From: Marivirga tractuosa DSM 4126
Lineage (GTDB): Bacteria > Bacteroidota > Bacteroidia > Cytophagales > Cyclobacteriaceae
DNA: 64,000 nucleotides
Direction: 5' to 3'
NCBI RefSeq assembly: GCF_000183425.1
Contig: NC_014759.1
Coordinates: forward strand, 4,447,575 to 4,511,574
Within the stretch, counting starts at the first letter, position 1; the number at the start of each line of letters is the position of its first letter. Below are positions 15,651 to 46,337 of the stretch, piece by piece. A program made the translations under genes and the position numbers. The notes under the pieces were generated by a model. That model was given only the letters and a program-made list of their open reading frames with translations. It was not told where the DNA came from and made no database searches.

Positions 15651-15685
15651 AAAAAAGGAGCTTTCAATTTGAAAACTCCTTTTAA
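15651..15685 (-). terminator. Rho-independent terminator after aconitase
   Basis: Read on the minus strand, AAAAGGAGTTTTC pairs with GAAAGCTCCTTTT across a short AAATT loop and is followed by a T run. It begins about 45 bases after the aconitase stop, and the orientation suits that gene. Confidence 0.75.
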
Positions 15686-15727
15686 TCTGACTCTTGAATC
15701 TAGACTCTTGATTCTAGTATCTAAATA

Positions 15728-18742: not shown

Positions 18743-21700
18743 ATGAAATATATTTATACCATAATATTAGGATTTATTTTGAGTATTTCAATAGCAGATG
18801 CTCAATGTCCAAATGATTCAAATACCGAGGCAACTATCGTGGCCATAGATGCATTATGCTTTGGGGCTGAGGATGGAACTATTTCTTTTGAGTTGAAAGA
18901 TGCTTCTGATGTTAGCTTGGACCCATCTGATTTTAATTTCGGTCTTTACGATGGCGGTGAGAATGACTGGGTATATGACGATATTGGCGTTTCTCCGGGT
19001 GGTGATATTAATCCAGCTATTACATTAAGTGTTTCAGGCACTGTTATTACCTTTTCAAATGTTCCAACAACTAAAGATGGTATTGGTTACACAATAGGGT
19101 CGAGGGATACTGGTATTTGCGGTAATACTCTTCGTTCTTATTCCAGTGGTTTTTCAGGTATAATTATCAGTGAACCAACGGAGTTAGTTGCATCAATTAA
19201 TTCAATAACAGATGATTGTAGTAATTCTAACTCTGGTGCAATAGATATTGATGTAAGTGGAGGTACTCCAGATGGAGGCGGTAATTATATTTATGCTTGG
19301 AGTAATTCTGCCTCAACACAAGATATTTCAGGGCTTGATGATGGGACCTACTCTGTAACAGTTACTGATGATAATGGCTGTACTGCAGAAATAACTGGAA
19401 TTGTTGTTGAAGCTGGACCCGATGCGGGGACAGCAGGTGCAGCCGATGCGTGCAACAACGATGGAGCCTTTAATCTGTACAATGTTCTTGGTGGTAGCCC
19501 AGAGGTGAGTGGAAGTTTTACGGCAGCAGTTGGCAATCCAGAGGCGGTAACGATCAGTCAACCGGGTGACGGGACTACGTCAACGGCCAACTTCAGCGGA
19601 GTAGCGGCAGGTGTTTACACCTTTACCTACACGGTAGGTTCTACGGGCTGTCCAGATGCGACAGCAGATGTAACGATAACGGTAAGCGAAGCTCCGGATG
19701 CAGGAACGAATGCGACAGTTGAGGCTTGCGAGGACAATAATAATTTTGATTTGTATGCAGCCCTTGGCGGCACTCCAGATGTGGATGGGACATGGACGGA
19801 AGATGTAGGTAATCCAGCGACTGGTATATTGACCCAAAGTGGTGATGGCACGACCGGAAGAGCGGATTTAACTACCGCTACAGGAGAATATAACTTCACC
19901 TACGAAGTGACAGCGCCAGGTTGTAGCCCATCCACGGCCGTACTGACCATAAATGTGAATGCTCTGCCCGATGCGGGGACAGCAGGTGCAGCCGATGCGT
20001 GCAACAACGATGGAGCCTTTAATCTGTACAATGTTCTTGGTGGTAGCCCAGAGGTGAGTGGAAGTTTTACGGCAGCAGTTGGCAATCCAGAGGCGGTAAC
20101 GATCAGTCAACCGGGTGACGGGACTACGTCAACGGCCAACTTCAGCGGAGTAGCGGCAGGTGTTTACACCTTTACCTACACGGTAGGTTCTACGGGCTGT
20201 CCAGATGCGACAGCAGATGTAACGATAACGGTAAGTAGCTTAACGGTTTCTGAATCGATTACTAATACTACAGGATGTGGTGTTCCTGATGGGGAAATAG
20301 CTTTAAATGTGACAAGTTCTTTTGCAGGTGATAGCTTTACATTCACTTGGACAAGTCCCGATGGATTTAGTGCCACAACAGAAGATATAACTGGTTTAGA
20401 AGGCGGAGATTATACTGTTGTAGTAACTTCTGATAATACAGGATGTACTTTTACTGATACTTATACCGTTGTTGACCCAGTACCTTTTACAATTGCAACT
20501 ACATCAGTGGATCAATCTCAGTGTAATGTAGGCAATGGCGAAATTAGTGTCAGTGTCTCCGGTGGGGCTGGCCCATTCAATTATTATGTAGTAGATACAA
20601 ATACTACTTCAGAAGTAGATAGGTCGGATGCTGATGCTTCAACGAACTATAGCTTCACTAGTTTAGCCCCAGGCGATTATGAAGTATTTGTAGAAGAAGG
20701 AGCATGTACTCAGTCAGAGACATTTACTATTGATGCAGTAACAGAAATTGTAGCAACTGTTGACAGTGAAACTCCAGCAGATTGCGGTGGTGGTGCAAAC
20801 GGAACTATTACTTTAGCCATTACTGATGCTGGAAATGATTTTGATATTTTAGTGGATGGGGTTTCTGAAGGTGTTCAAACAGCAGGAACAAATACTTACA
20901 CTATCACAGGTTTAACACTAGGTTCTTACGATATAATTGTAAGAGATCAAGTGACAAACTGTGAAGTAAATATTACGGAAGATGTTAATGAAAATGCAAC
21001 ATTCACTATTGATACCGAAACAGTAAATGATATTACAACTTGTGGTGGAAGTGATGGTTCAATAGAATTGACTGTATCCGGTGGAACTCCTACTTTCACA
21101 TGGACGGGTCCTACAGGCTTTGCAGATCCAGGTAATACTAATTCAATTACTGGATTGGATATTTCAGGAACTTATACAGTAACATTAGAAGAAGCTGGTT
21201 GTACCGTTGTTAGAAATTATAATATCACTGCTCCAACTCCTCCAACATCTGTTGCAGGTGCTGATTCGACTATATGCTTACCAACGCTGGAGCTTTATGC
21301 TGATGCTTTAGCTGCAGATCAAGCAGGTGAATGGCAAATAGTTAGTCAACCAGCAGGTGCAGCTGCAAATATTATTGATCCTACTAGCCCTACAACTACT
21401 CTTGAAGATTTATTTGAGTTAGGAACGTATGAATTAGCCTGGATTTTAGAAAATACGATTACGAATTGCTCTGACAGCGATACGATTGTAATTACAAGAA
21501 AAGATATTACGGTTGCGGATGCAGGCACTGATCAACAAGTATGTGGCACAACGGCCACTTTAGCAGCTAATGCAGCCGATACAGATGAAACTGGTACATG
21601 GACTTTAATTAGCGGGTCAGGTGATTTTGCTCCGGGAGAGGAAAATAACCCTGCTGCAGAGGTTACAAATTTAACAATAGGAGATAATGTCTTCGAATGG

Positions 21701-24700
21701 ACTATTTCGGATGATAATGGAATTTGTGATCCGACTTCAAATCAGGTAACTATTACAGCTGAACCTTTACCAACTGCTTTTGCCGGAAATGACGAGTCAT
21801 TCTGTGATATTACTGAAATAGATTTAAGCACATTGGATGGAGGAAATACGCCACCAGTAGCTGAGAATGGAACCATAGAGTGGACCACCACTTCAACAGA
21901 TGGTACATTCAATGACAATACATTAGAAACACCTGTTTATACATTTGGAACAGATGATATAACAGCTGGTGCAGTTACTTTAACAATGACGGTAACTGGT
22001 ACGGGGGCTTGCTCTGCTGAAGTTGTTTCTGATGAAGTAGTGATAAGTATCAATAATAAACCAACTATTGAACCAATTGCTGATGCTGCTATTTGTTATG
22101 TGGATGGAAGTAGCACATTTGATGTGGCGGCAACAGTATCCAATGAAGCAAGTGTATTATGGTCTAGTAATGGTACTGGTACTTTTGATGATGACATTTC
22201 TCCTTCTACTTTCTATATTCCAAGTGAAGCTGATTCGACTGCAGGTACAGTTGATTTAACTATAACAGCAACAGGACAAGGAGCTTGTGCTGACAGTGTG
22301 CTTACATTTACTTTGGACATCAATAGTATTCGTATTGATGATGCAGTTATTACACAAACCTCTGGTTGTGGTGCTTCAGATGGTGCAATAGATATTACAG
22401 TGGCTAGTTCTGAAGTAGGGGATACATTCGATTTTCTATGGACAGATAGTGATGGAAATGTAGTTTCAAATACAGATGAAGACTTAACTGGTCTTGAAGC
22501 GGGTATTTATAATGTTCAAATCACTTCTGTAACTGGCTGTACTACTACAGCAACCTATGAAGTAACTGATCCCGTACCGTTTACTGTCACCTTAGGAACA
22601 CCAGTAGATCAAAGTACGTGTGGTACTGCTAATGGAGAAATTAGTGCTACGGTATCTGATAATACTGATAACCTTTCATATTATATATTAGATTCAAACG
22701 GTGATGAGGTAGCTGATAGTAGGGTAGATGATACTTCTGATGTAAGTTATAGCTTCACAGAGTTAGCCCCTGGTGACTATACCTTGGTAGTTGAGGAAAA
22801 TGCTTGTGTTGCAAACGAAACATTTACAATTAATCCTGCACCATCAATAGTAGCTTCTGTTGATCCTGCAAATGTAACACCTGCATCTTGTGGTGGTGGA
22901 AATGATGGTAGTATAACAATTGATGTTACTGATGTTGGCAATGCATATACTGCTACATTAACCGATGAAGATGGTAATGAGACACCGCAAAATTTAGCAG
23001 CTGGAACTACTACAGTATTATTTGATGCACTTTCTCAAGGAAGTTATTCTATAACTATTTCTGATGATGTAACTAATTGTGAAGTAGTAATCAATCAAGT
23101 TGTAACTGAAGATGCTGCATTCAGTATAGATAGTGAAAATGTTACTGATATAGTGAATTGCGGAGCAGCAGAAGGTGCTATTGATTTGGAAATTGTAGAT
23201 TTAGTAGGTCCAACTACATACAGCTGGACTGGTCCTGAAGGAAGTGGATTTACAGCGACTACCCTAGATATAAATAATCTGTCAGTTGCCGGAGATTATC
23301 AATTAACGATTGAGGATAATGGATGTGTTGTTGAGAGAACCTACACAATCTCCCAACCAGCAGAATGTGATTACGACTGCGAAGATTTCAGAGTTTCTCC
23401 TATCACTGAAGCTGCTACTTGCTTAGGTGTGGATGATGGCAAACTGTTCTTCTTGTTAAGAGATGTAAATGCTAGTTCGCCTGAATTGAATTTTGACATC
23501 AAGCAAGCTGGAGCTGATGATGCTACATACAACAGATTCATTGTCGATAATATAGGGCGAGGACTGATCATTGAAATTGACAGCTCATTTGCTACAGGTA
23601 CTTATACTGTTGTGGCCTCTGATCCGAATTTGGATTGTGTGTCCGATACATTCAATATTAATATCGGAACCAAAACCACTTTATCGGCTACAATTGATAT
23701 TGAGCAACCAACTTGTACTATAGCTACAGGTTCTATTTCGGCAAATATTGCGGGAACTAATGATGACTTTGAATACATACTGTATTTTGAGGGAGATTCA
23801 TTAACTACCAATATGACTGGTGTTTTTGCTGATTTGGAGGAAGGTGATTATGAATTAGAATTCAATAACCAAAACACCAGTGCTTGCGGTTTAGAAAATC
23901 GAACTTTCACCATCGAGAATACTGCAGTGGTAGATCAAAGTGCTGTTGATATCAATATCACTAATCCTGAGTGTGGTGAAGTCTTCGGATCTGTTTCGGC
24001 TAGTTTGAATAATTTACCTAGCAATTATGAATTCATTTTGGTAGATGGTAACGGGGATGAAGTGGCTCGGAATGCAACGGGTATATTTAATGAAGTACCA
24101 GAAGGAACTTATGTTATGCAGTTTGAAAATGTGGTGGATCCAGGTGCTTGTCCAATTGCAGATAGAGGTGGTTTATTAATCGAAAATAATGGTTCCTTTA
24201 CAGCTGTGGCAAGTGAAGTCGAAGACATTGTTTGTCATGGTGATTCCGATGGTTCAGCAGTTATTACTTTGCAAGGAATTTCAACCGGATACTATTCAGT
24301 TGATAATGGAGTGATATGGAATGAATTTACTTCTGGAAATAGAATAACAGGTCTGCCAGAAGTGAATAATATATTGGTTAGTGATCAAGCAGGTACATCT
24401 GATTGTGAATTATCAGTTGCTGTTGGAATTGAGTATTTAAGCGATCCAATAGAATTAGCTGGTGGCTCTCCGATTATTATTACCGAAGCTAGTTGTGATG
24501 AATCTGAAACGGATGGGGTCATTGAAATACCTGAAGTATCGGGAGGTGTTGAACCTTATACATTTGAAATTGATGGTAATACTGTAGAACTTGATGGTAA
24601 CAGACAAATATCAGGTTTGAATAAATTAACACAAACTTTAAGCATCATTGATAATACAGGGTGTAGTGTTGATTTTCCAATAAATAACATGTTAGCGCCA

Positions 24701-26008
24701 AATCAAATTAGCGCTAATGTTACGGAAATAAATGAGCAACAGGAGAATAGATGTATAGAACAACCTAAGGGTATTAGAGTAACTTTAAGTTCATTTACAG
24801 TGAATAATATCCCTGGTCCATTTACCCTTATCCTCAACAGAGCAGATGACGAGCAAGTGGTGGAACTGCCATTGAATTTGGATAGCAATAATGGTGAACC
24901 TGTCTTTTTTGTTGGTCCTGATTATGATTTAAATTTCACATTCGAAAAAGGAGAACAGTATAATTGGACCATTAGGACAAATAATAGTGAGCAGTCTTGT
25001 TCTACGGACGGAACCATTAGAATTGATGATGGGGCAATTATCCCAACTTTTGATCTCAATTTAGTTGATGTTGCTTGCTTTAATTCGAATGGATTTATTG
25101 AGTTAACCAATATCGTAGCGAATAATGATTTCCCTTTGTTCATTCAAATTTCTAAAAATGGTGAAATTAGAGAAACTATAACATACAATGACTTTGAATT
25201 AAATGATTCATTTACTGTTAGTACTAATGCTTTACTAAATCCAGATAATGCAAATGAACCTGATGGTGGTACATATGATGTAGTGATCTATCAATCACCC
25301 GAAATATGTAACGGTGCTATAATTCAATCTGAAAAGCAAAGTGGAATTATAGAAGAACCGACAAGTGAATTAACCGCAGAATTGATTCCAGAGCCTAATT
25401 TACCTCCAGGAGTAGAGCAAACTCGAAATGATATGAATCCTATTCCTGCAACTAGAGAAACTACCGCAGATGGATCTATTTCTATTCGCTTAGCAACTAC
25501 TTCGGGATCACCTAATGGAATATATTTTGCTGATCTTAATTTGATTGAACCAATAGGAAATAATAGCCGAAGTGACTATACGGGTATTACAGTAGATTCA
25601 GTTTTATTTGGTTCTGATGAAATTATAACCTTTGAAGGTCTCCTTCCTGGAATCTATGAAATTGTTTTCTATGATGAATTCGGTTGTGATCAAAACAATA
25701 AAATAATTGGTAAAGAAGGTGATTTTCAGATTACTGTTGATTTTGACAGAAGACCATTTATTCCAAATATTTTCACTCCAAATAATGACGGAAATAATGA
25801 TGAGTTTAGAATTCTAAATTTACCAGATAACGGTGCGAAACTAGTGGTTACTAATCGAAATGGAACCATTATCTATAGTGATAGTAATTACAGAGAATCT
25901 AACCTTTGGGATGGAGGAGACAATCCTGATGGCATATATTTCTACCAACTGACCGTAAATGGGACAGTTCAAACTGGTTGGGTCGAAATTATGAGAGGTC
26001 GAAGGTAA
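18743..26008 (+). CDS. Giant SprB-like repeat surface protein with type IX secretion type B sorting domain
   Basis: This 2421-residue protein has a signal peptide (MKYIYTIILGFILSISIADA) and then mostly tandem beta-sandwich modules rich in Gly, Thr, Asp and Ser. Many show the SprB-type pattern 'C-G-x-x-D-G-x-I ... G-x-Y-x-V-x-V-x-D ... C' (for example CGGGANGTITLAITDAG). Residues 226-315 and 409-498 are identical modules flanking a diverged one (316-408). A block of about 340 residues (about 495-834) recurs in diverged form at about 1194-1543. The C-terminus (about 2338-2421) is the gliding-motility-associated domain: PFIPNIFTPNNDGNNDEFRI, then NRNGTIIYS, LWDGGDN and PDGIYFYQL. Such proteins are exported by the type IX system and act as gliding adhesins or filaments at the surface. 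Sequence alone cannot tell whether it is the motility adhesin itself. Confidence 0.9.
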   Translation: MKYIYTIILGFILSISIADAQCPNDSNTEATIVAIDALCFGAEDGTISFELKDASDVSLDPSDFNFGLYDGGENDWVYDDIGVSPGGDINPAITLSVSGTVITFSNVPTTKDGIGYTIGSRDTGICGNTLRSYSSGFSGIIISEPTELVASINSITDDCSNSNSGAIDIDVSGGTPDGGGNYIYAWSNSASTQDISGLDDGTYSVTVTDDNGCTAEITGIVVEAGPDAGTAGAADACNNDGAFNLYNVLGGSPEVSGSFTAAVGNPEAVTISQPGDGTTSTANFSGVAAGVYTFTYTVGSTGCPDATADVTITVSEAPDAGTNATVEACEDNNNFDLYAALGGTPDVDGTWTEDVGNPATGILTQSGDGTTGRADLTTATGEYNFTYEVTAPGCSPSTAVLTINVNALPDAGTAGAADACNNDGAFNLYNVLGGSPEVSGSFTAAVGNPEAVTISQPGDGTTSTANFSGVAAGVYTFTYTVGSTGCPDATADVTITVSSLTVSESITNTTGCGVPDGEIALNVTSSFAGDSFTFTWTSPDGFSATTEDITGLEGGDYTVVVTSDNTGCTFTDTYTVVDPVPFTIATTSVDQSQCNVGNGEISVSVSGGAGPFNYYVVDTNTTSEVDRSDADASTNYSFTSLAPGDYEVFVEEGACTQSETFTIDAVTEIVATVDSETPADCGGGANGTITLAITDAGNDFDILVDGVSEGVQTAGTNTYTITGLTLGSYDIIVRDQVTNCEVNITEDVNENATFTIDTETVNDITTCGGSDGSIELTVSGGTPTFTWTGPTGFADPGNTNSITGLDISGTYTVTLEEAGCTVVRNYNITAPTPPTSVAGADSTICLPTLELYADALAADQAGEWQIVSQPAGAAANIIDPTSPTTTLEDLFELGTYELAWILENTITNCSDSDTIVITRKDITVADAGTDQQVCGTTATLAANAADTDETGTWTLISGSGDFAPGEENNPAAEVTNLTIGDNVFEWTISDDNGICDPTSNQVTITAEPLPTAFAGNDESFCDITEIDLSTLDGGNTPPVAENGTIEWTTTSTDGTFNDNTLETPVYTFGTDDITAGAVTLTMTVTGTGACSAEVVSDEVVISINNKPTIEPIADAAICYVDGSSTFDVAATVSNEASVLWSSNGTGTFDDDISPSTFYIPSEADSTAGTVDLTITATGQGACADSVLTFTLDINSIRIDDAVITQTSGCGASDGAIDITVASSEVGDTFDFLWTDSDGNVVSNTDEDLTGLEAGIYNVQITSVTGCTTTATYEVTDPVPFTVTLGTPVDQSTCGTANGEISATVSDNTDNLSYYILDSNGDEVADSRVDDTSDVSYSFTELAPGDYTLVVEENACVANETFTINPAPSIVASVDPANVTPASCGGGNDGSITIDVTDVGNAYTATLTDEDGNETPQNLAAGTTTVLFDALSQGSYSITISDDVTNCEVVINQVVTEDAAFSIDSENVTDIVNCGAAEGAIDLEIVDLVGPTTYSWTGPEGSGFTATTLDINNLSVAGDYQLTIEDNGCVVERTYTISQPAECDYDCEDFRVSPITEAATCLGVDDGKLFFLLRDVNASSPELNFDIKQAGADDATYNRFIVDNIGRGLIIEIDSSFATGTYTVVASDPNLDCVSDTFNINIGTKTTLSATIDIEQPTCTIATGSISANIAGTNDDFEYILYFEGDSLTTNMTGVFADLEEGDYELEFNNQNTSACGLENRTFTIENTAVVDQSAVDINITNPECGEVFGSVSASLNNLPSNYEFILVDGNGDEVARNATGIFNEVPEGTYVMQFENVVDPGACPIADRGGLLIENNGSFTAVASEVEDIVCHGDSDGSAVITLQGISTGYYSVDNGVIWNEFTSGNRITGLPEVNNILVSDQAGTSDCELSVAVGIEYLSDPIELAGGSPIIITEASCDESETDGVIEIPEVSGGVEPYTFEIDGNTVELDGNRQISGLNKLTQTLSIIDNTGCSVDFPINNMLAPNQISANVTEINEQQENRCIEQPKGIRVTLSSFTVNNIPGPFTLILNRADDEQVVELPLNLDSNNGEPVFFVGPDYDLNFTFEKGEQYNWTIRTNNSEQSCSTDGTIRIDDGAIIPTFDLNLVDVACFNSNGFIELTNIVANNDFPLFIQISKNGEIRETITYNDFELNDSFTVSTNALLNPDNANEPDGGTYDVVIYQSPEICNGAIIQSEKQSGIIEEPTSELTAELIPEPNLPPGVEQTRNDMNPIPATRETTADGSISIRLATTSGSPNGIYFADLNLIEPIGNNSRSDYTGITVDSVLFGSDEIITFEGLLPGIYEIVFYDEFGCDQNNKIIGKEGDFQITVDFDRRPFIPNIFTPNNDGNNDEFRILNLPDNGAKLVVTNRNGTIIYSDSNYRESNLWDGGDNPDGIYFYQLTVNGTVQTGWVEIMRGRR
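19418..19686 (+). repeat. Perfect 269-bp direct repeat, copy 1
   Basis: Identical base for base, by eye, to 19967-20235, at an offset of 549 bases (183 codons), so the frame is kept. It begins CCCGATGCGGGGACAGCAGG. It encodes one module of about 90 residues in the giant surface protein. Confidence 0.93.
19967..20235 (+). repeat. Perfect 269-bp direct repeat, copy 2
   Basis: Second copy of the repeat at 19418-19686. The module between the copies (19687-19966) has the same fold but diverged sequence. The lack of any silent difference points to recent duplication or gene conversion. Confidence 0.93.
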
Positions 26009-26840: not shown

Positions 26841-27398
26841 ATGAAATGGACACTCTCTTTTATGTTGATGTTGATATGCATTCAGTTATCGGCTCAAAAA
26901 TATGGTACAGCCGTTGGTTTGCGAATTGGCGAAGATAGATATGGAGTAAGTGTTAAGCAGAGGATTTCACCTCGCTTTAGTGCAGAAGCTATTTCGGATT
27001 TAGAACCTGATGCATTTCATTTTGCAGTTTTGCCGAAATATCATTTACCCATTACAGGAGAAGGTTTCAATTTGTTTTTTGGTGCAGGTATGCACGTTGG
27101 TGCTCTAAAAGAATACGGATCTACTTATGGCTATGACCTCATTGGTGGGATTGAATGGAAAATTCCAGCACTACCACTTGTAATCTCTGCAGATATAAAA
27201 CCCGCCTACCATATCAATCATGAAGACTGGTTTGAATTTCCAGCTAGCGTTTCCGTTCATTATGCCATTACGCGTGAATCAAAGGCAAAAAGGAAAAAAG
27301 ATAGAATAAAAAGAAAGAAGAGAAAGGAAAGAAGGGAGAGGAGAGAAGAGCGTAGAGAAAAACGACAAGAATGGTGGGATGAATTTAGAAATAATTAG
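26841..27398 (+). CDS. Exported barrel-like protein with a highly basic charged C-terminal tail
   Basis: This 185-residue protein has a signal peptide (MKWTLSFMLMLICIQLSAQ). Residues 20-145 alternate in a beta pattern with aromatic strand ends (FHFAVLPKYHLP, FNLFFGAGMHVGALKEYG, YDLIGGIEWKI, PLVISADIKPAYHI, SVSVHYAITRE), as in small outer-membrane barrel proteins of about 8 strands. Residues 146-176 are almost only Lys, Arg and Glu, forming a charged tail that ends WWDEFRNN. If the barrel is in the outer membrane the tail would face the periplasm and could touch peptidoglycan or nucleic acid; this is speculation. No regulator or obvious partner is adjacent. Confidence 0.65.
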   Translation: MKWTLSFMLMLICIQLSAQKYGTAVGLRIGEDRYGVSVKQRISPRFSAEAISDLEPDAFHFAVLPKYHLPITGEGFNLFFGAGMHVGALKEYGSTYGYDLIGGIEWKIPALPLVISADIKPAYHINHEDWFEFPASVSVHYAITRESKAKRKKDRIKRKKRKERRERREERREKRQEWWDEFRNN

Positions 27399-46096: not shown

Positions 46097-46337
46097 AAGT
46101 ATAGTTTTAAGTTTATGGGATAAATATATTCATTTCTTTTAAAATTGTTATCGTATTTCTTCTGTAAATGATAAAATTTCAATTTTTAATAGTTTTTTTT
46201 AAATAGTTTTTTTGTGATTACAATGGTAAGCCTTTTGTATGAAGCAATATTTAGAATTTTATCCACTTAATTATTTGATTTTATCACGACAAATAATTTA
46301 TGTTTATTACTTTAGCAGCTTACGAATTTCAAAATAA

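Follow-up and report, generated by a model that had tools for sequence, protein, structure and literature searches.

How does a short stretch inside one bacterial gene come to hold two identical copies of a domain in DNA that is much richer in guanine plus cytosine (GC) than the sequence on either side? The question is raised by a 64,000-nucleotide segment of Marivirga tractuosa DSM 4126 (NC_014759.1, positions 4,447,575 to 4,511,574 of the forward strand; hereafter the window), in which the gene for a giant surface protein, P0001, contains a block designated A-B-A', that is, two copies of domain A with a diverged sibling, domain B, between them. A first-pass annotation read this block as a module recently acquired or shuffled from elsewhere and then duplicated. 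We think it fairly probable that A-B-A' is instead the short form, whether contracted in the cell or collapsed in assembly, of a tandem array of immunoglobulin (Ig)-like domains, and that the homogenising recombination itself favours G and C. The features on which the argument turns are as follows, with GC3s denoting GC content at synonymous third positions.

18743..26008, + strand: gene for the 2421-residue exported surface protein P0001, with an N-terminal signal-like stretch (by eye), SprB repeats, three Ig/PKD-like domains and a C-terminal type IX sorting domain (profile matches)
19415..20236, no strand assigned: compositional island A-B-A', putatively what is left of a longer array or such an array in collapsed form; predicted to fold as three successive beta-sandwich domains
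19418..19686, + strand: domain A, first copy (GC3s 0.444)
19688..19963, + strand: domain B, a divergent sibling that separates the two A copies, its silent sites GC-rich like theirs (GC3s 0.385; A versus B, 55.1% identity in DNA and 47.2% in protein)
19967..20235, + strand: domain A, second copy, identical to the first and the last unit before the SprB part (GC3s 0.456)

Direct comparison of 19418-19686 with 19967-20235 gave 269 identical bases of 269, a maximal match that cannot be extended by one base on either side, at an in-frame offset of 549 bases or 183 codons, exactly as the first-pass annotation had it; its hand counts of GC were likewise reproduced (0.558, or 67/120, at 19501-19620; 0.35, or 21/60, at 22681-22740). 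The anomaly that it saw in GC and codon choice is also real, since GC3s of 0.385-0.456 within the block compares with 0.190 in the 224 codons before it and 0.178 in the 203 codons after it, and codon usage is thus not uniform along the gene. Among 35 other genes of the window GC3s ranges from 0.177 to 0.329. Four-fold degenerate sites carry 29% G and 17% C in A plus B, as against 10% G and 9% C in the rest of the gene. What had to be given up was the confinement of the odd composition to the duplicated piece: it spans the whole three-domain block (approximately 19415-20236), and domain B, which is unduplicated, is nearly as odd in composition as A. Because B shares the composition of A, the object to be explained is an island of three sibling domains, equivalent to one and a half units of an array. 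When amino acid content was controlled for, the GC3s excess of the repeated stretches was +0.216. Random 200-codon segments from 60 array-free genes deviated with a standard deviation of 0.043 and a 99th percentile of 0.095, exceeding 0.1 in 0.7% of cases; chance is therefore an unlikely cause of the excess in the window. Searches by DNA and by protein found no other copy of the module in the same genome. The program TRF did not detect the A-B-A' array because its longest period was 500.

Other Marivirga carry the A-B pair as well, at the corresponding position of the orthologous gene. Orthologs in four genomes (G002, G005, G006 and G009) carry 9-12 units of 174-184 codons, with a within-genome mean best-match unit identity of 0.992-0.998. 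The G006 ortholog (P0002, named M. salinae) has approximately 4,095 residues with 11 A and 10 B domains by pattern count, the G005 ortholog (P0004, named M. arenosa) has 9 A and 9 B, and P0003, which is named M. tractuosa but is too diverged from the window protein to be treated as conspecific, has 11 A and 10 B, again by pattern count. In G002 and G009 (P0005) the same place is filled by two other subfamilies of the same domain, and in the G004 ortholog by an array of another domain type. The window protein and P0002 are 87.5% identical over the N-terminal 224 residues and 69% identical over the C-terminal 851 residues; since both flanks are conserved, the array occupies an old site. The DNA of domain A in the window is 0.723 identical to that of G006 and equally to that of G005; within G006, the first two A copies reach 0.993. 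Near-identity of units within a genome, set against approximately 72% identity of domain A between species, amounts to concerted evolution, in which units are gained, lost and replaced. Copy number, which had been expected to vary, does so, and the differences seen are between species only. Across the Marivirga domain family, members of uniform arrays have GC3s of approximately 0.22-0.51 and diverged or solitary members 0.11-0.25, with small overlap. As a separate observation, the window protein and P0003 share the A-B array but are only 38.8% identical over the N-terminal 224 residues; the contrast between P0003 and P0002 in this region suggests that the tip of the protein may be exchanged while the stalk is kept.

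These orthologs bear directly on the origin of the island. A GC-rich module acquired recently by horizontal transfer and then duplicated would account for silent-site composition unlike that of the rest of the gene, but an orthologous module stands at the same place in sister species and the genome holds no second locus. Direction of change was assessed at silent sites of codons shared by the window, G006 and G005, comparing array with flanks; the method is crude and the sites are nearly saturated, and only the contrast between array and flanks counts. Changes from A/T to G/C were more frequent in the array along the window lineage (26/63 versus 40/261 in the flank, p 1.8e-5) and in G005 (17/54 versus 45/266, p 0.022), whereas loss of G/C-ending codons was no higher in the array in any of the three lineages (4/11 versus 5/9, 7/14 versus 8/12 and 8/15 versus 13/17). 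Codons ending in G or C in all three species numbered only 7 of 115 in the array and 4 of 372 in the flanks. The scarcity of such common codons, together with the excess of A/T-to-G/C change in the array, argues against a GC-rich ancestral block that is now decaying. Recent acquisition is accordingly very improbable: of the first-pass annotation's proposal, recent homogenisation of the copies is supported and an origin elsewhere is not, and the search across genomes that it called for turned up orthologs at the same place.

Whether the island reflects a general property of uniform arrays was addressed by a survey of in-gene repeats in giant open reading frames. GC3s excess was taken as the GC3s of the repeats minus that expected from the same amino acids under the codon usage found elsewhere in that gene. 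For copy identity, each 45-codon stretch was scored against whichever other copy matched it best, and the measure is not an all-pairs mean. Sixteen of the first 116 genes were relatives of the window protein or of its array, and the remainder were chosen by open-frame length from CHU_C-sorted lists; from one source list all 36 frames of at least 2,000 residues among the matches listed were taken (two had been fetched earlier), and other lists were sampled in part. Three short sequences (L035, L040 and L041) were unused. No usable array was found in 50 of the 116 genes of this first survey and in 16 of the 40 genes of a second survey, which drew on one family and was aimed at GC-rich hosts. From the resulting 90 arrays, L036 (few degenerate codons) and L117 (the same array as L064) were dropped to leave 88. 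Genus labels were assigned by hand where a genus has several genomes; each other genome counted as its own genus.

Copy identity and GC3s excess were correlated in the first survey (66 arrays, Spearman 0.52, p 8e-6), in its 45 arrays from outside Marivirga (0.45, p 0.0017) and in the second survey (24 arrays, 0.69, p 1.7e-4). For the combined 88 arrays in 30 genera the coefficient was 0.55 (p 3e-8), and for the 30 genus means 0.70 (p 1.5e-5). The mean excess rose with identity, from 0.000 at 0.80-0.90 (12/23 arrays positive) through +0.023 at 0.90-0.95 (18/27) and +0.075 at 0.95-0.98 (19/22) to +0.116 at 0.98 and above (15/16). At identities of at least 0.95, 34 of 38 arrays were positive, 22 of them beyond the 99th percentile of random segments, and by genus 14 of 16 were positive (p 0.001). 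An altered detection setting left the slope unchanged (82 arrays, 0.55). In a rank regression on 90 arrays, identity retained a t of 5.55, with host GC at t 2.56 and array length at t 0.49. The relation also appeared within genes, where stretches of at least 0.97 identity lay above those of 0.80-0.90 in 25 of 30 genes (p 5e-5) and stretches of 0.90-0.97 did so in 31 of 46 (p 0.0027). Among GC-rich hosts (GC3s outside the array of at least 0.4), the excess was positive in 9 of the 10 arrays whose copy identity reached 0.95; in the second survey all nine arrays at this level of identity were positive, by 0.09-0.23, against outside GC3s of 0.32-0.65. The excess in GC-rich hosts, where average donors should lower GC, and the same excess in uniform arrays of other domain types both tell further against acquisition.

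The mechanism that we propose would run as follows. Recombination between units, whether by unequal crossing-over, by gene conversion or through slippage involving sister copies, would add, remove and overwrite units, so that the stalk changes length while its copies remain alike. If the homogenising process favours G and C, most simply through GC-biased gene conversion, the GC-rich stretch would record many rounds of recombination, not an origin in foreign DNA. GC-biased conversion in bacteria is itself a contested hypothesis. In the 39 arrays analysed by codon box (L036 included), G and C gain in both two-fold and four-fold boxes and T loses, four-fold A being unchanged overall; C is up in the pyrimidine boxes of 28 of the 39 arrays, and G in the purine boxes of 26 and the four-fold boxes of 34. 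The upward shift in GC-poor and GC-rich hosts, these gains of C and G across codon boxes and the lack of a mean shift in diverged arrays favour GC-biased gene conversion, which on these sequence comparisons is the leading candidate cause, not a proven one. In its general form, the proposal is that bacterial recombination is GC-biased enough for uniform in-gene arrays to drift above the silent GC of the rest of their genes, by approximately 8 to 12 percentage points on average and by more than 20 in single cases, in GC-poor and GC-rich hosts alike; this we advance tentatively, with confidence a little below the midpoint.

A number of observations weigh against this reading and are set out together here. 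In the three-species comparison, G006 showed no significant excess of A/T-to-G/C change in the array (9/46 versus 36/257, p 0.37), and inferred changes toward G/C outnumbered the reverse in the flanks (121 to 26) as well as in the array (52 to 19), a bias that comes with so crude a method. Inside single genes, the stretches at 0.97 identity or above did not differ from those of 0.90-0.97 (24/42, p 0.26). Segregating silent sites among copies gave no clear bias: singletons comprised 82 G/C-to-A/T changes over 516 G/C sites and 110 A/T-to-G/C changes over 1116 A/T sites, 9 of 24 arrays having been excluded as out of register. Of the 38 arrays at 0.95 identity or above, ten had an excess below +0.03, namely L028 of G004 (+0.029), L030 and L060 of G008 (+0.016 and +0.006), L087 of G345 (+0.003), L109 of G398 (+0.021), L114 of G326 (+0.023) and four negative arrays (L116 of G111, -0.089; L098 of G345, -0.092; L052 of G004, -0.069; L111 of G266, -0.024). 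Outside Bacteroidota, five arrays in 10 loci gave +0.109, +0.081, +0.021, -0.009 and -0.051; this sample, from plasmids, comprised 10 of 27 matching records (11 of the 27 being Sphingobium, of which one was taken), and its arrays are too few for an extension beyond the phylum. In GC-poor hosts the gain of G in purine boxes was not significant (12/20, p 0.23), and A-ending four-fold codons rose in 17 of 20 arrays, which counts as adverse because plain GC-biased conversion does not predict a gain of A. The correlation alone, finally, is compatible with GC-rich repeats recombining more readily.

Given the exceptions, a rise of GC in every uniform array regardless of type was rejected. Two of the arrays listed, L028 (the G004 ortholog) and L030 (another giant gene of G008), are uniform, of a different domain type and near-normal in GC, escaping the rise.

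The codon-box exceptions lend themselves to an account by synonymous selection, in which arrays experience a weaker host-codon preference or use slow codons against co-misfolding of identical neighbours. Arrays of GC-poor hosts lose T-ending four-fold codons (19/20) as they gain A-ending ones, and their codon use is slightly flatter (mean +0.033, 15/19, p 0.066); loss of the preferred T may be part of the cause in these hosts. In GC-rich hosts, by contrast, codon use in arrays is if anything narrower (-0.068, 7/10, p 0.064, not significant) and GC is still higher, a combination predicted by neither variant, and diverged arrays lack an average shift. We regard synonymous selection as unlikely to be the main explanation, and relaxed codon selection or rare codons as the sole cause is disfavoured by the GC-rich hosts. 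Somewhat less probable again is reversed causation, in which GC-rich repeats homogenise more and uniform arrays are simply the GC-rich subset. Although compatible with the correlation between identity and GC, it would need a stock of GC-rich diverged arrays, and little of one exists: only 1 of 23 arrays at 0.80-0.90 identity exceeds +0.095, versus the 22 of 38 at 0.95 and above. Some of the excess was gained on the branch that leads to the window, and in Mycobacterium tuberculosis the frequency of paralog conversion is not predicted by GC content (PMC13061034).

If homogenising recombination left its footprint in the window, the brevity of the array there calls for comment. Because the unduplicated B carries the same GC footprint as A, B is suggested to have belonged, or still to belong, to a longer array, which may have contracted in the cell or may have been folded by the assembler into A-B-A' from a real gene with many A-B units. 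The DSM 4126 assembly combined 454 Titanium and Illumina data with Newbler, Velvet and phrap (PMC3111994), and the 454 data, 201.9 Mb in 589,653 reads, amount to approximately 342 bases per read from the paper's totals, as against a 549-base unit (PMC3111994). Collapse is also in keeping with the single B copy showing the GC of a multi-copy array. Four genomes assembled in one or two contigs (G004, G005, G006 and G009) have intact genes with approximately 9-12 units (those of G004 being of another domain type), and among the relatives assembled in many contigs the ortholog reaches a contig end in G003, G007 and G008 and possibly in G001. Of six other giant genes fetched from the same genome, three hold arrays, all of them diverged with identity of 0.90-0.94 (L044, L049 and L054). 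On the other side, finishing of the genome drew on a 10-kb paired library and 336 additional reactions (PMC3111994), the exact repeat of 269 bases is shorter than the mean 454 read, so that A-B-A' as printed could be read through, G002 has an intact array in spite of approximately 40 contigs, and array type and length vary in the genus, so that real contraction would be ordinary. We place assembly collapse just short of an even prospect. The composition result is unaffected by it.

The three diverged arrays of the same genome, all in giant CHU_C genes, have approximately 5-11 copies each, with a period near 100 codons in two of them and of 116 codons in one.

The giant surface protein of the first-pass annotation was borne out as an exported one of 2421 residues with SprB repeats and a CHU_C domain. 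Two further parts were delimited.

18743..19414, + strand: N-terminal region before the array, residues 1-224, possibly the stalk tip; one weak SprB repeat (24.6 bits, below the cut-off of 28)
25760..25990, + strand: CHU_C type IX sorting domain, residues 2340-2416, ambiguous between types A and B (PF13585, TIGR04131, TIGR04183)

Profile matches for P0001 comprised SprB (PF13573, E 3.9e-15; 55.6 bits against a cut-off of 28, in 5 stretches), CHU_C (PF13585, E 5.5e-13; 49.3 bits against 27) and K319L-like_PKD (PF22352, E 9.5e-10). Of the models for sorting-domain type, type B (TIGR04131) scored 25.8 bits, below its cut-off of 35, and type A (TIGR04183) 24.4 bits, above its cut-off of 23. The block A-B-A' exceeded the K319L-like_PKD cut-off (43.0 bits versus 27), a single A fell below it (25.5 bits), and domain B had no family match near any cut-off. 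With the block alone, no PDB sequence match better than E 0.065 was obtained. Structure prediction returned three beta-sandwich domains (mean pLDDT 84.9, pTM 0.69); Foldseek matches of the predicted block were mostly cadherins, with low TM-scores, and in a structural comparison (VIA) the rows below PDB 9fly included Ig chains of titin and NCAM, at Z 8.3-8.6, near 9fly. The A-B array probably helps to form the stalk of a giant surface protein that carries SprB repeats and is secreted by the type IX route. Its CHU_C domain is one of 14 matches in the genome, and a search gave 2559 proteins at E 0.001 among 7995 scored candidates; the array, its domain type and its export route look ordinary for the phylum.

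Elsewhere in the window, positions 27309-27350 hold three copies of a 14-base AG-rich unit within a 185-residue frame (26841-27398), near its highly charged C terminus. Gain or loss of one 14-base unit would shift the frame, and to judge from sequence this could be a small phase-variation site. More short tandem repeats with a 14-base period lie between long frames at 15684-15717 and 46183-46213; the common period may be chance.

Several implications follow if the reading of biased homogenisation is right. GC-biased conversion in bacteria is known as a hypothesis (PMC4450053), and conversion bias has been argued there from comparisons between genes, which differ in much else (PMC4450053). Uniform arrays permit the comparison to be made within a gene, where diverged copies of a like domain serve as the control, and such arrays can be constructed experimentally. 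Those in the stalks of type IX-secreted proteins would in that case amount to a natural within-gene test of biased gene conversion in bacteria, with very many independent replicates. Anomalies of GC and codon use, often put down to foreign DNA, can originate within a genome wherever its repeats recombine. As for the protein, the result suggests that this gliding marine bacterium has a stalk of variable length, for which the deposited sequence may be too short.

Known systems supply partial counterparts to both the composition and the architecture. Lassalle et al. (2015, PMC4450053) related bacterial GC content, third positions included, to the recombination that they detected, and they name exceptions. 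That study compares recombinant with other core genes, whereas the contrast here lies within single genes, between uniform and diverged copies; a word search of its main text found no 'paralog', 'multigene' or 'Bacteroid' and one unrelated 'repeat'. In palindromes of the mammalian X chromosome, arms are more than 99% identical through conversion, and conversion is GC-biased (PMC8981503); the logic is the same as for the window array, but the hosts are animals. In the open-licence PubMed Central literature we found no bacterial counterpart for in-gene arrays and no link between copy uniformity and GC inside single bacterial genes.

In architecture, the grappling hook protein GhpA of Aureispira (PDB 9flp and 9fly) is much larger than the window protein, and the best of six sequence stretches matching it lies outside the repeat. 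The SprB-type gliding adhesins of Bacteroidota have SprB repeats (PF13573) and CHU_C in common with P0001; M. tractuosa glides (PMC3111994). A further partial counterpart is the group of Periscope Proteins, which carry long tandem arrays of nearly identical folded domains on the cell surface, with varying copy number and with intragenic recombination implicated (Whelan et al. 2021, PMC8201768). Word searches of main texts found 'Bacteroid' in neither PMC8201768 nor the review PMC9704523, and no mention of type IX, GC content, gene conversion or codon in the latter. One mark of the Periscope class is a tandem array of repeats of more than 50 residues at 80% identity or above in a surface protein; the A copies of the window are 100% identical, though separated by B, and its relatives have 9-12 units at 0.992-0.998. 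Where that class has an N-terminal ligand-binding domain and a surface anchor, P0001 shows a sub-threshold SprB match and a C-terminal CHU_C export signal. P0001 differs in being type IX-secreted, with a C-terminal CHU_C signal, in its alternating A-B pairs and in length differences that here lie between species.

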